This document shows positions 53,420-57,843 of a DNA stretch of 64,000 bases, in pieces. The first letter of the stretch is position 1. Each line of letters opens with the position of its first letter. The stretch comes from an uncultured Spirochaetota bacterium (GTDB lineage: Bacteria; Spirochaetota; UBA4802; UBA5550): NCBI GenBank assembly GCA_937872225.1, contig CALMRZ010000081.1, positions 1 through 64,000 of the forward strand, in the 5' to 3' direction. A program made the translations under genes and the position numbers. The notes beneath the pieces were generated by a model. It was not told the origin of the DNA. It saw only the letters and a list, made by a program, of their open reading frames with translations, and did no database searches.

Positions 53420-54085
53420 ATGTGCGGTCGATTTGCCCAGATAGAGCCTATCGGCAAGATTATAAAGACTTTTTTTATTGATGAGGTCCTGACTGATCTA
53501 GTCCCGAGTTATAATATTGCTCCCGGAGGCCGTATCCTTTCGGTGGTAGTAAGGGATGGAAAACATTACCTGGTGGATCACCAGTGGGGTCTAATACCTT
53601 ACTGGGCCAAGGATCCCTCCATAGGGAATAAATTGATAAACGCGAGGGGAGAGACAGTAAACCAGAAACCGAGTTTCAGGAATGCTTTCAAATCAAGGCG
53701 TTGCCTCATCCCTGCCAGCGGTTTTTATGAATGGAAAAAGGAAGGCAAGATCAAGATTCCGTATTATGTAAAGCTGAAATCAGGCAGCGCCTTCGGTTTC
53801 GCCGGCCTCCATGAAACATGGATATCCCCATCCGGAGAGGAGGTGCGTACCTGTACCATAATCACCACGGGAGCCAATGCCTTAATGGAGCCGATCCATG
53901 ACAGGATGCCGGTCATTATCCCCCGGGACAGGCATGTTCAATGGCTCGATACAACAGGTACGCCGGATAATGTGCTCGGCCTGATTGCGCCATACCCGGC
54001 CGAAGAGATGGAGTTGTACCAGGTTTCCCCAATGGTTAACTCGCCGAAAAACAATTCAGCTGAATGTATCACACGTCTGCAGTAA
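53420..54085 (+). CDS. SRAP/HMCES-family abasic-site processing protein (YedK-like)
   Basis: A 221-residue SRAP protein that crosslinks to abasic sites in single-stranded DNA through Cys2, exposed after Met removal (MCGRFAQ). Other active-site parts are visible: NARGETV, the catalytic Glu in PASGFYEWKKEG, and His in EPIHDRMPVI. It is often found near SOS genes; umuD and umuC lie 2 kb away. A repeat copy ends 25 bases before its start. The frame ends four bases from the convergent thioesterase gene. Confidence 0.95.
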   Translation: MCGRFAQIEPIGKIIKTFFIDEVLTDLVPSYNIAPGGRILSVVVRDGKHYLVDHQWGLIPYWAKDPSIGNKLINARGETVNQKPSFRNAFKSRRCLIPASGFYEWKKEGKIKIPYYVKLKSGSAFGFAGLHETWISPSGEEVRTCTIITTGANALMEPIHDRMPVIIPRDRHVQWLDTTGTPDNVLGLIAPYPAEEMELYQVSPMVNSPKNNSAECITRLQ

Positions 54086-54568: not shown

Positions 54569-54988
54569 TCACTTGAATTTTATTAAAAAGCTGCTGAGAA
54601 TGCGCTTAAAGATTTTGATTTCATCCTCGCTGAATCCTTCTTTGAGCATGGTATTGATTCTATGCGCGATCACTTTCGACTTATACGCCTCTACAATTCC
54701 TTTATCAGTGATATAGATCAGGCATTTCCTCCTGTCGCCAGCATCCTGTTCGCGTGTAACCAGCCCGTTGCGTTCGAGGAGGTCCACATGGCGCGTGACT
54801 GCCGCATTATCTATGGAGATAAGTTCACTCAACTGGTTCATCGAAAGTCCGTTGCGTAATTTCAGCGAAAACAGTATGCCGCTTTGTGCCGGGGAAATTG
54901 CGACGCCTCCGGTGGTGAATTCCCTTTTCAGGTAATTCTTTAATGTGCGTTGGGCCTTTGACATGAGAAAAAGAAGTCTGTCGTCCAT
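54569..54988 (-). CDS. MarR-family transcriptional regulator
   Basis: A 139-residue winged-helix repressor from ATG 54988: SPAQSGILFSLKLRNGLSMNQLSELISIDNAAVTRHVDLLERNGLV and the DAGDRRKCLIYITDKG wing are canonical. The frame extends 19 codons upstream, but that stretch lies over the operators and has no ribosome site. It is followed by the hotdog protein gene. Two palindromes directly upstream make autoregulation very likely. The ligand is unknown; a link to acyl compounds is suggested by the partner gene. Confidence 0.93.
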   Translation of the reverse strand: MDDRLLFLMSKAQRTLKNYLKREFTTGGVAISPAQSGILFSLKLRNGLSMNQLSELISIDNAAVTRHVDLLERNGLVTREQDAGDRRKCLIYITDKGIVEAYKSKVIAHRINTMLKEGFSEDEIKIFKRILSSFLIKFK

Positions 54989-55006
54989 AGTTATCCTGCA
55001 AATTGT

Positions 55007-55036
55007 TTGATAAGTCAAATATTGACAAGTCAAATA
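55007..55036 (-). promoter_or_regulatory. Tandem MarR-type operators
   Basis: Two abutting 15-bp units, TTGATAAGTCAAATA (55007-55021) and TTGACAAGTCAAATA (55022-55036), differ at one base. Each contains a palindrome, TTGATAAGTCAA with one mismatch and TTGACAAGTCAA perfect. The 15-base spacing would put bound dimers on nearly opposite helix faces. They lie 20-50 bases upstream of the MarR ATG, over its likely promoter. Confidence 0.8.
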
Positions 55037-55094
55037 AATTTGCAAGTTTTTTCAAGAAAGAGGATATTATTAAAAATAATATACTAAACATTTG

Positions 55095-55123
55095 TTGACA
55101 TATAATGGCTGATTTCCTATATT
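55095..55123 (+). promoter_or_regulatory. Consensus sigma-70 promoter of the DUF3795-umuD unit
   Basis: TTGACA (55095-55100) and TATATT (55118-55123) are 17 bases apart. Transcription would start near 55130. A reverse repeat copy, TTGCTCTGACCCC (55137-55149), lies in the leader, and a GTTATCGG element overlaps the start. It is divergent from the MarR operators 60 bases away. Confidence 0.8.
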
Positions 55124-55173: not shown

Positions 55174-55521
55174 ATGCGTGAAATAACGATAGATAAGAAT
55201 CTCATAGCCTTTTGCGGGCTCTATTGTGCTGCCTGCTCACGGTATATCAAGAAGAAGTGTCCCGGATGCAGCCAGAATAAAAAGGCTGCCTGGTGCAGAG
55301 TGCGGGCCTGTTGTCTGGAACGAGGGTATGGATCCTGTGCTGATTGCACCGATTTTCGGGAAGCCCGGGAATGCGGCACTTTCAACAATTTCATGGCCCG
55401 GATATTCGGATTCATCTTCCGGTCAGATAGGGCCGCCTGCATCGCCATCATCAGGGCAGAAGGTTATGAGGCCTTTGCCCGGGACATGGCCGTGCGCCGT
55501 GCACGAACCATACCGAGGTAG
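55174..55521 (+). CDS. DUF3795 Cys-rich, probably zinc-binding protein
   Basis: A 115-residue protein from ATG 55174 (AAGGAGG ribosome site). The first half carries many Cys in C-x2-C and related spacing (FCGLYCAACSRYI, KKCPGCSQNKKAAWCRVRACCLE, SCADCTDF, ECGTF), the DUF3795 pattern, and the second half is helical. The function of the family is unknown. It lies 11 bases before umuD and shares its promoter. Confidence 0.85.
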   Translation: MREITIDKNLIAFCGLYCAACSRYIKKKCPGCSQNKKAAWCRVRACCLERGYGSCADCTDFREARECGTFNNFMARIFGFIFRSDRAACIAIIRAEGYEAFARDMAVRRARTIPR

Positions 55522-55532
55522 CGGAGGCGTTT

Positions 55533-55997
55533 ATGGGAGTCGCTGAAAAGATTCGGGCGGCCCGTGACAGCTCCATTGCCTCCATACATCATGCCGGTGG
55601 ATGCAATCCAGCGCGATTTCCGCTGTTTGTGGCCAGGATACCGGCCGGTTTCCCTTCTCCGGCCGATGACTATGTGGACAGGGGACTTGATCTGAATGAG
55701 TTCCTCGTGCGGCATCCCGCAGCCACGTTTTTCGTCCGTGTCTCCGGCGATTCCATGACGGGGGCGGGCATTTATTCCGGCGATGTCCTCGTTGTGGACC
55801 GGGCTGAGACCGCCCGGGACCGGAGCGTCATCATCGCGGCGCTGAACGGCGAGCTCACGGTAAAGCGCTTCGTCCGTGAAGGCGGCCGCGTTTACCTTGC
55901 TTCGGAGAACCCGGCATATGAGCCCCTGGAGGTGACCGGCGAAACGGGGTTCGAGATATGGGGCGTCGTGGTGCATGTCATACACAGTTTCAGGTAA
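55533..55997 (+). CDS. umuD: UmuD-type SOS mutagenesis protein (S24 self-cleaving peptidase)
   Basis: A 154-residue protein that, after RecA-stimulated self-cleavage, forms UmuD' and activates DNA polymerase V. The cleavage site is Ala38-Gly39 in IPAGFPSPADDY. The catalytic pair is Ser74 in SGDSMTGAGI and Lys111 in ELTVKRF. There is no N-terminal DNA-binding domain, so it is not LexA. umuC is not adjacent as usual; a 145-codon gene lies between them. Confidence 0.95.
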   Translation: MGVAEKIRAARDSSIASIHHAGGCNPARFPLFVARIPAGFPSPADDYVDRGLDLNEFLVRHPAATFFVRVSGDSMTGAGIYSGDVLVVDRAETARDRSVIIAALNGELTVKRFVREGGRVYLASENPAYEPLEVTGETGFEIWGVVVHVIHSFR

Positions 55998-56022
55998 CGT
56001 TTGCCTGTTGGATAAACCTGCG

Positions 56023-56077
56023 TTGACCGGCTGAATTTTTTTCATTATTATGATCTCCGTTCGTATATCAGCTGATA
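56023..56077 (+). promoter_or_regulatory. Internal umu promoter with operator-like palindrome
   Basis: TTGACC (56023-56028) and TATTAT (56046-56051) are 17 bases apart, so transcription would start near 56058. A perfect 12-bp palindrome, TATCAGCTGATA, lies at 56066-56077, just downstream of that start, and the RHH gene follows at 56108 with a GGGGAGG ribosome site. This is a good position for repression by the RHH protein itself or by an SOS regulator. Confidence 0.65.
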
Positions 56078-56107
56078 GACATTCAGTGAAGGGCGGGGAG
56101 GTAATAC

Positions 56108-56545
56108 ATGGAAACTACACTCAATGTTCATGCTGACATCCTGGAAAAAATCAACTGGGCCGCGCGGTCACGCCGCGTTTCACGGTCCGAGATGATTATC
56201 GTGCTGATCAAGAGAATAATGGATGATGCTTCAAACTCCGTGCGCTTCGGCAGGATGGTCCGGTACCAGGAGAGAAACAGGCCGGATATGTGGCATACTG
56301 TTCATGTGAAGCTTAGGATGGATGACTACGAATACCTCCTGGATCTCAGGCGGTTGCTCAAGATGTCTGTTTCATTAATTCTTGCGTATGCAGTGAGGAA
56401 ACACTTGAATGAAATAATGAAAAAGAAAGCTACCGATAACAATCAATATAAGAATTATGTTCTCATTAAAGAGATATTTAATGCCACAGTATGCTGGAAA
56501 CTAATATGGGGATATCCCCCCGACATGGGAAAACTGCTCCCCTGA
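56108..56545 (+). CDS. Putative tandem ribbon-helix-helix protein encoded between umuD and umuC
   Basis: A 145-residue basic protein. Residues 1-40 (METTLNVHADILEKINWAA, then SRRVSRSEMIIVLIKRIM) fit a ribbon-helix-helix fold, with a strand, helix, turn and helix. Residues 60-105 (WHTVHVKLRMDDYEYLLDL, then RRLLKMSVSLILAYAVRKHL) repeat the same plan, so one chain may supply both strands of an RHH DNA-binding unit. The last 35 residues are variable. It is not part of the usual umuDC operon and I do not recognise a named family. Its own promoter and palindrome suggest a local regulator of umuC. The stop lies 26 bases before the umuC start. Confidence 0.75.
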   Translation: METTLNVHADILEKINWAARSRRVSRSEMIIVLIKRIMDDASNSVRFGRMVRYQERNRPDMWHTVHVKLRMDDYEYLLDLRRLLKMSVSLILAYAVRKHLNEIMKKKATDNNQYKNYVLIKEIFNATVCWKLIWGYPPDMGKLLP

Positions 56546-56571
56546 AACTTCATCAGGGACAGGCGGAAATC

Positions 56572-57843
56572 ATGAAGAACCTCTGCTGCCTAATCGATTG
56601 CAACAATTTCTATGTTTCCTGCGAGCGTGTCTTCAGACCGGAGCTCCAGACGAGGCCCGTGGTGGTGCTCTCCAACAACGACGGCAACGTCGTCGCCCTG
56701 TCCAACGAGGTGAAGGAGATGGGTCTGCCTTTCGGCGCTCCATTTTTCAAGGTGAAGGATCTGATCAGGGAAAAACGGGTGGCGGTTTTCTCCTCCAATT
56801 ATACCCTGTACGGCGACATGTCGCGGCGGGTCATGGAATGCCTGGCGCGGTTTTCCCCGGAAATGGAAGTCTATTCCATTGATGAGGCCTTTCTGTCCCT
56901 GGGGGGCATGCGCGCCGATCCGGTGGAATACGGCATGATGATACGGGATGCTGTGAAACAGTGGACCGGTATACCGGTCAGCATTGGCATAGCCCCCACC
57001 AAGACGCTGGCAAAGCTCGCCAGTAAAATCGGGAAGAAGGACCCCGACTGCCGTGGCGTCTTTGACCTTGTCGACCGCGATCGCGTTGACGGCGTGCTGG
57101 AGGCCACGGACGCGGGCGATGTGTGGGGCGTCGGCCGCCAGTACCGGCAGCTCCTGCACCGCAACGGCATCCGCACTGCCCGGCAGCTCCGCGACGCGCC
57201 GGACAAGTGGGTCCGCCGTAACATGACCATCATGGGCCTCCGCACCGTGTGGGAGCTGCGGGGCGTGCCCTGCATTCCCTTCGACGAGCTCCCGGCGCCG
57301 AAGAAGGGCATCGTTAGCTCCCGTTCCTTCGGCAGGCCTGTGGAGTCCATCGACGAGCTCCGGCAGGCCATTGCCGCGTACGTGAGCCGGGCCGCGGAAA
57401 AGCTCCGCGCCCAGAAGGGCGTCGCCGGGTCGGTGACGGTGTTTCTCTCCACCAACCGGTTCAAGGAGGATGATCCCCAGTATTCCAGCGGCATCTCCTG
57501 TCGCCTGCCGGTTCCGTCGTCGTACACGCCGCGCCTCATCCAGGTGGCGGGCCGCCTCCTGGAGGGGATATACCGGCGGGGCTACCGCTACAAGAGGGCG
57601 GGGGTGATGCTCTATGAGATCATGCGGGAGGGGGACGCCCAGCTGGATCTGTTCAGCCGTTTCCATGACACGGACCGCGCGCGGCGCCTCATGGGCGTGG
57701 TGGACGGCATCAACCGCGATCTGGGCCGGCACACCATTCATTTCGCCGCCGAGGGAATCGCCAGGCCGTGGCAGATGCGGCGCGAGTTCCTGTCGGCGCG
57801 CTACACCACCCACTGGGACGAGATCCCGGTGGTGCGCGCGTAG
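56572..57843 (+). CDS. umuC: DNA polymerase V catalytic subunit (Y family)
   Basis: A 423-residue translesion polymerase, the usual UmuC length. The catalytic acids are in CLIDCNNFYVSCE and YSIDEAFLSL; the nucleotide-binding part is RPVVVLSNNDGNVVALSNE; the thumb region has IGIAPTKTLAKLASKIGKK. The C-terminal little finger and UmuC-specific DUF4113 region are present (LDLFSRFHDTDRARRLMGVVDGINR). Start ATG 56572 gives the standard N-terminus; upstream codons overlap the RHH gene. It ends eight bases from the convergent folK gene. Confidence 0.97.
   Translation: MKNLCCLIDCNNFYVSCERVFRPELQTRPVVVLSNNDGNVVALSNEVKEMGLPFGAPFFKVKDLIREKRVAVFSSNYTLYGDMSRRVMECLARFSPEMEVYSIDEAFLSLGGMRADPVEYGMMIRDAVKQWTGIPVSIGIAPTKTLAKLASKIGKKDPDCRGVFDLVDRDRVDGVLEATDAGDVWGVGRQYRQLLHRNGIRTARQLRDAPDKWVRRNMTIMGLRTVWELRGVPCIPFDELPAPKKGIVSSRSFGRPVESIDELRQAIAAYVSRAAEKLRAQKGVAGSVTVFLSTNRFKEDDPQYSSGISCRLPVPSSYTPRLIQVAGRLLEGIYRRGYRYKRAGVMLYEIMREGDAQLDLFSRFHDTDRARRLMGVVDGINRDLGRHTIHFAAEGIARPWQMRREFLSARYTTHWDEIPVVRA

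Follow-up and report, generated by a model that had tools for sequence, protein, structure and literature searches.

The described control of umuDC is that exerted by LexA within the SOS response. The umu locus presented here resembles that system in that a putative SOS box heads the operon and a similar motif lies before dinB, and differs from it in carrying a second promoter-like element inside the operon. The leptospiral SOS box is TTTGN5CAAA (PMC3789691), from which the SOS-like motif at the umu operon differs. A further point of comparison is the SigX/ComX regulon of streptococci, whose core SigX targets include dprA, radC and ssbB (PMC5069739). In the present case ssb, dprA and radC carry the promoter-like element, although the organism and the promoter sequence are different, comM and paralogs of a putative DNA-binding protein are added, and uptake genes are missing from the matches. 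In Gram-negative bacteria, ComM acts as a helicase in transformation. To our knowledge, neither a competence-type regulon nor its promoter has been described in the Spirochaetota, and a literature search on spirochaete competence returned nothing on point.

The protein encoded between umuD and umuC has described counterparts of its own. TraY of the F plasmid likewise has two ribbon-helix-helix (RHH) units in one chain and is its best structural match. DUF1564 (PF07600), from Leptospiraceae-like spirochaetes and a sister family, also belongs to the Spirochaetota, has more than 20 paralogs per genome and shows an RHH-RHH layout. We know of no described function for DUF1564, and a literature search found no paper naming it.

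The reading favored here, with a probability of roughly two in three, is that insertion of an RHH gene brought umuC under the control of a competence-like DNA-processing promoter as well as SOS. It yields a motif that can be put to the test, along with a set of target genes, and gives a context to a large family of putative DNA-binding proteins that has no name and resembles the equally unexplained, expanded DUF1564 of Leptospira; it also suggests a route by which an error-prone polymerase could uncouple from UmuD and join a second programme.

The umu operon and its SOS-like head

The window (the whole 64-kb stretch of DNA that was analysed) carries a DUF3795 gene, umuD, a gene for a 145-residue putative RHH protein and umuC, in that order on the plus strand, with the following features:

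55084-55099, plus strand: SOS-like operator CTAAACATTTGTTGAC, overlapping the -35 of the operon promoter
55095-55123, plus strand: sigma70-type promoter TTGACA-N17-TATATT heading DUF3795-umuD, matching the consensus at 11/12 positions
55174-55521, plus strand: DUF3795 protein gene (Pfam DUF3795, E 3.6e-5), with AAGGAGG upstream of its start
55533-55997, plus strand: umuD (NCBIfam UmuD subfamily, E 1.3e-46, over the cut-off; Pfam Peptidase_S24, E 2.3e-32)
56033-56067, plus strand: bipartite promoter-like element, comprising an A/T block at 56033-56042, N17, and TTCGTATA at 56060-56067
56066-56077, no strand: palindrome TATCAGCTGATA, 12 bp, judged incidental, the window having 27 perfect palindromes of this length
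56108-56545, plus strand: gene for the putative tandem RHH protein, 145 aa, of an order-specific expanded paralogous family
56572-57843, plus strand: umuC, 423 aa (NCBIfam UmuC subfamily, E 7.7e-129)

The products of umuD and umuC belong to the UmuD autoprotease accessory proteins and the UmuC Y-family polymerases, respectively, the latter scoring 430.3 bits against an NCBIfam cut-off of 431 and exceeding the Pfam cut-offs for IMS and IMS_C. The start of umuC was corrected to 56572 (MKNLCCLIDCNNFY...), which lies 26 nt beyond the RHH stop codon, and the resulting 423-aa frame is kept in 25 genomes. The start at 56491 in the list of open reading frames merely gave the longest frame, overlaps the RHH gene and was rejected. 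The DUF3795 gene probably starts at 55174, which is preferred because a start at 55105 would fall inside the promoter. Its product is cysteine-rich, and the gene is the first of the umu operon in G000, G001 and G004; it was not detected at the umu loci of G003 and G005.

Most genomes of the order have CTAAACATTTGTTGAC, or a motif similar to it, ahead of umuD. With up to two mismatches allowed, the motif has 9 matches in the genome versus 2 in controls, and a copy with two mismatches is found 25 bp before dinB. Given its recurrence before umuD in genomes across the order and its presence before dinB, CTAAACATTTGTTGAC is probably an SOS operator, and LexA would presumably bind there. Besides dinB, an SOS-like motif is also seen before a DEAD-box helicase gene and, farther off, a Cas3-like gene. 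Other neighbors of the operon include an apparent SRAP/YedK (HMCES-like) gene at 53420-54085 (plus strand, read from the translation), and in G005 a similar gene seems to end immediately before umuD. A gene for a MarR-like regulator at 54569-55045 (minus strand) is divergent from the DUF3795-umuD operon and is similarly placed in G003.

Adjacency of umuD and umuC had been taken as the norm in the initial annotation, and this holds for the order, in which umuC is present in 25 of 46 genomes and adjoins umuD directly in 22 of those 25. The splitting of the pair by a 145-codon gene was likewise confirmed. That such a gene would occur in related umu loci proved true of three congeneric species (G000, G003 and G004) but not of the other 22 umuC-bearing genomes, the genomes compared being draft assemblies and the named relatives metagenome-assembled genomes. 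Comparison of the three species gives the inserted gene a dN/dS of about 0.09-0.14, close to the values for umuD and umuC. This indicates that the gene is under purifying selection, and it is therefore taken to be functional.

In two other genera, paralogs of the RHH gene also flank umuDC: the one in G015 precedes umuD by about 240 bp, and the one in G020 follows umuC at a distance of about 40 bp. By our own rough arithmetic, 0.26 genomes outside the genus would be expected to have a paralog flanking umuDC (P about 0.03), and this proximity is only suggestive. In a weakly resolved tree, the copies from G015 and G020 are placed apart from those linked to umu within the genus; a single ancestral origin of all umu-linked copies, which was considered, is not shown by that tree.

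A dispersed family of predicted tandem RHH proteins

An AlphaFold2 model of the 145-residue protein, built with 15 homologs (mean pLDDT 76), shows strand-helix-helix twice followed by a C-terminal hairpin. The first unit is predicted to consist of a strand at residues 2-8 and helices at 9-21 and 26-52, and the second of a strand at 62-68 and helices at 71-84 and 88-105, with the hairpin at 117-134. The model thus contains two strand-helix-helix units of the kind that defines the RHH (MetJ/Arc) superfamily, as the initial annotation had expected, and at the level of prediction that expectation was borne out. Searched as a single sequence, the protein gave a sub-threshold Pfam RHH_1 match at residues 4-30; the best RHH_5 match among family members has an E value of 6e-6, with the window copy below the cut-off. 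The best solved fold was that of chains of the F-plasmid relaxosome (Z 10.7, 2.5 Å over 100 residues), which we interpret as the tandem RHH protein TraY, and the structural matches also include AvtR (Z 8.1) and AtaR. The model supports assignment of the protein as a tandem RHH protein with a putative role in DNA binding. It differs from TraY in its sequence (15% identity) and in its extra C-terminal hairpin, and its family is chromosomal and dispersed, with no conjugation genes seen adjacent.

In both the RHH family and DUF1564 an invariant YQ stands between the two units and the second unit has a conserved Ser, and hhalign matches the two families over 94 columns (E 1.6e-5, probability 79, about 15% identity) with the YQ aligned. 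Membership in DUF1564 was rejected since none of 39 genomes of the order had a match above the Pfam gathering cut-off; weak matches occur in two genomes of the order, one of them on a member of the RHH family, and DUF1564 is retained only as a plausible distant relative. DUF1564 itself appears to be a tandem RHH family too.

The genome from which the window derives has 18 paralogous loci whose products are 34-55% identical to the umu-linked copy. Copy numbers are 4-16 in other species of the genus and reach 48 within the order, while outside the order a sample of 198 Spirochaetota genomes yielded one weak match. Genes next to the paralogs, as read from translations, include polA, murA, CTP synthase, valS and cob genes; these neighbors are mutually unrelated, and several of the loci are syntenic between species. 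From these sequence comparisons, the RHH family is a dispersed, order-specific family of the Spirochaetota. No recurrent partner gene was found next to the paralogs across 38 loci, and a role as a type II toxin-antitoxin antitoxin was rejected for want of a recurrent small partner gene.

This dispersal bears on the earlier proposal of a dedicated umu regulator, according to which the RHH protein would bind beside its own gene and tune umuC specifically as a private layer over SOS. While the predicted RHH fold, the purifying selection at three syntenic umu-linked loci and the paralogs flanking umuDC in two other genera are in keeping with such a role, the 18 paralogous loci have the same upstream element and diverse neighbors, the flanking copies in those genera fall apart from the umu-linked copies of the genus in the weakly resolved tree, and the palindrome named in that proposal is not conserved. 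A dedicated role is thus improbable for a protein encoded at one of so many dispersed loci with unrelated neighbors. Even less probable is that the RHH gene and its element form a mobile, non-autonomous unit for which the umu position is one insertion site, as the high copy number and varied neighbors might be taken to indicate. The dispersal must be old given the divergence of the copies and the synteny of several between species, no DNA in common was seen past the stop codon, and the element also lies upstream of unrelated single-copy genes.

The bipartite element between umuD and the RHH gene

The element at 56033-56067, which like the SOS-like box was missed in the first reading, lies 41 nt before the RHH start codon. 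Its consensus is an A5T5 block of 10 nt, a spacer of 17 nt, and TTCGTWTA, located 34-50 nt before the start in most copies, and the A5T5 block (AAAAATTTTT) is a perfect dyad in the consensus. The element was found at fixed spacing upstream of all 37 family copies tested from six species. With a leave-one-out matrix (22.6 bits in total) scored against shuffles, 36 of the 37 copies had p <= 0.01 and the remaining copy had p = 0.027; the umu copy scored 28.1 versus a shuffle mean of -9.1. The element occurs once in the window, and all three umu-linked loci retain it. Elsewhere in the order, it is partly recognizable by eye in families f2, f4 and f5 and, by the same criterion, absent from the RHH copies of f7, suggesting that the RHH family and the element can be separated. 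An element at the same spacing was not seen by eye upstream of DUF1564 genes.

The initial annotation had placed a control region here and a possible second start for umuC, and the conserved element upholds that part of it. The sequences it named fared less well. The TTGACC-N17-TATTAT promoter is present at 56023-56051 but its TTGACC -35 is not conserved in an orthologous locus that is 83% identical, and the 12-bp palindrome, although present, is not conserved in orthologous loci.

Any transcript starting at the element would have to run on into umuC, because umuC is on the same strand 26 nt downstream of the RHH gene and no terminator is predicted on the plus strand between umuD and umuC. The shared strand and the absence of a predicted terminator would equally permit readthrough from the SOS promoter, and it is possible that the insertion is neutral, with umuC read through from upstream and the element serving the RHH gene alone. 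That umuDC is without the inserted gene in most other species agrees with this view, but it is unlikely given that a start at the element could not avoid transcribing umuC and that the element is preserved in all three species. In addition, the RHH stop codon overlaps the umuC start in G004, which suggests translational coupling of the two genes.

Genes sharing the element and the proposed control of umuC

A pattern built from the RHH copies alone matched 90 sites in six genomes versus 7 in reversed controls; a first, loose pattern had not been clearly enriched (19 versus 11 in controls), and fixing its spacing gave 34 versus 8. Among 28 sites with unbiased flanks, 75% lay outside long open reading frames with a start codon 5-120 nt downstream, compared with 5% of random positions. 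Clustering of the 79 downstream proteins, whose identities were checked with NCBIfam and Pfam, gave RHH paralogs as the largest class (19). ComM/YifB and an LTD/Big_2 protein recurred in five of the six genomes, SSB in four, and a UvrD-like helicase, a tyrosine recombinase, a REP-type Y1 transposase, ORF6N and a second secreted protein in three each, while DprA (G000) and RadC (G004) were targets in one genome each. A common promoter-like element thus lies upstream of DNA-processing competence genes (comM, ssb, dprA and radC). DNA-uptake genes (comEC, comEA, pili) were not among the exact-pattern matches in the six genomes. RmuC was dropped as a target, as its spacing differs and the family scan gave no name.

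Because the element is common to all tested paralogs of the genus and to DNA-processing genes, it would serve as a promoter for a whole regulon and not as a switch private to umu. In the favored account, an RHH copy with its own promoter-like element came between umuD and umuC in an ancestor of the three sampled congeners, although the umu-linked copies could alternatively reflect repeated gain or loss. The element would be the shared promoter, or an activator site plus -10, of a regulon that unites the RHH paralogs tested in the genus with genes for DNA processing and recombination, several of the latter typical of competence regulons. From the sequence evidence umuC probably has two inputs, one from the SOS start upstream of DUF3795-umuD and the other from the shared element, from which it would be transcribed together with the RHH gene. 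By inference, transcription would begin at the element and umuC would be expressed from there, and the RHH paralogs would feed back on what is taken to be a competence-like programme. The label "competence-like" is used on account of dprA, radC, ssb and comM, and with caution since uptake genes are absent from the matches. It may overstate the case, as transposases, ORF6N and toxin-antitoxin genes among the targets suggest a mobile-DNA theme.

Alternatively, the bipartite element may function as an operator and not as a promoter. The palindromic AAAAATTTTT block could be bound by tandem RHH dimers, which would auto- and cross-regulate the paralogs and the DNA-processing genes. The block is a perfect consensus dyad located where a regulator overlapping the -35 would bind, and the RHH paralogs are the biggest class of targets. 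Against this, the f7 RHH copies are without the element, and the TTCGTWTA half resembles a -10. Binding by the RHH proteins is a tentative proposition with appreciable odds, and we lean toward a promoter or activator-type site. These readings are not mutually exclusive, and the confidence attached to them overlaps.

The broadest form of the favored account, which we regard as speculative and slightly less probable than the operator, posits a Spirochaetota programme with an A5T5-N17-TTCGTWTA promoter that co-expresses ComM, SSB, DprA, RadC, recombinases, transposases and the RHH paralogs that regulate it. UmuC would have been recruited to this programme by insertion of a paralog, and mutagenesis would thereby be tied to DNA uptake without dependence on UmuD or SOS.

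Two families of secreted proteins carry the element in most species of the genus, one having lamin-tail and Big_2 domains and the other being unnamed, an unexpected association for a DNA-processing regulon. Tyrosine recombinases of about 370 aa that resemble integron integrases also carry the element in several species.
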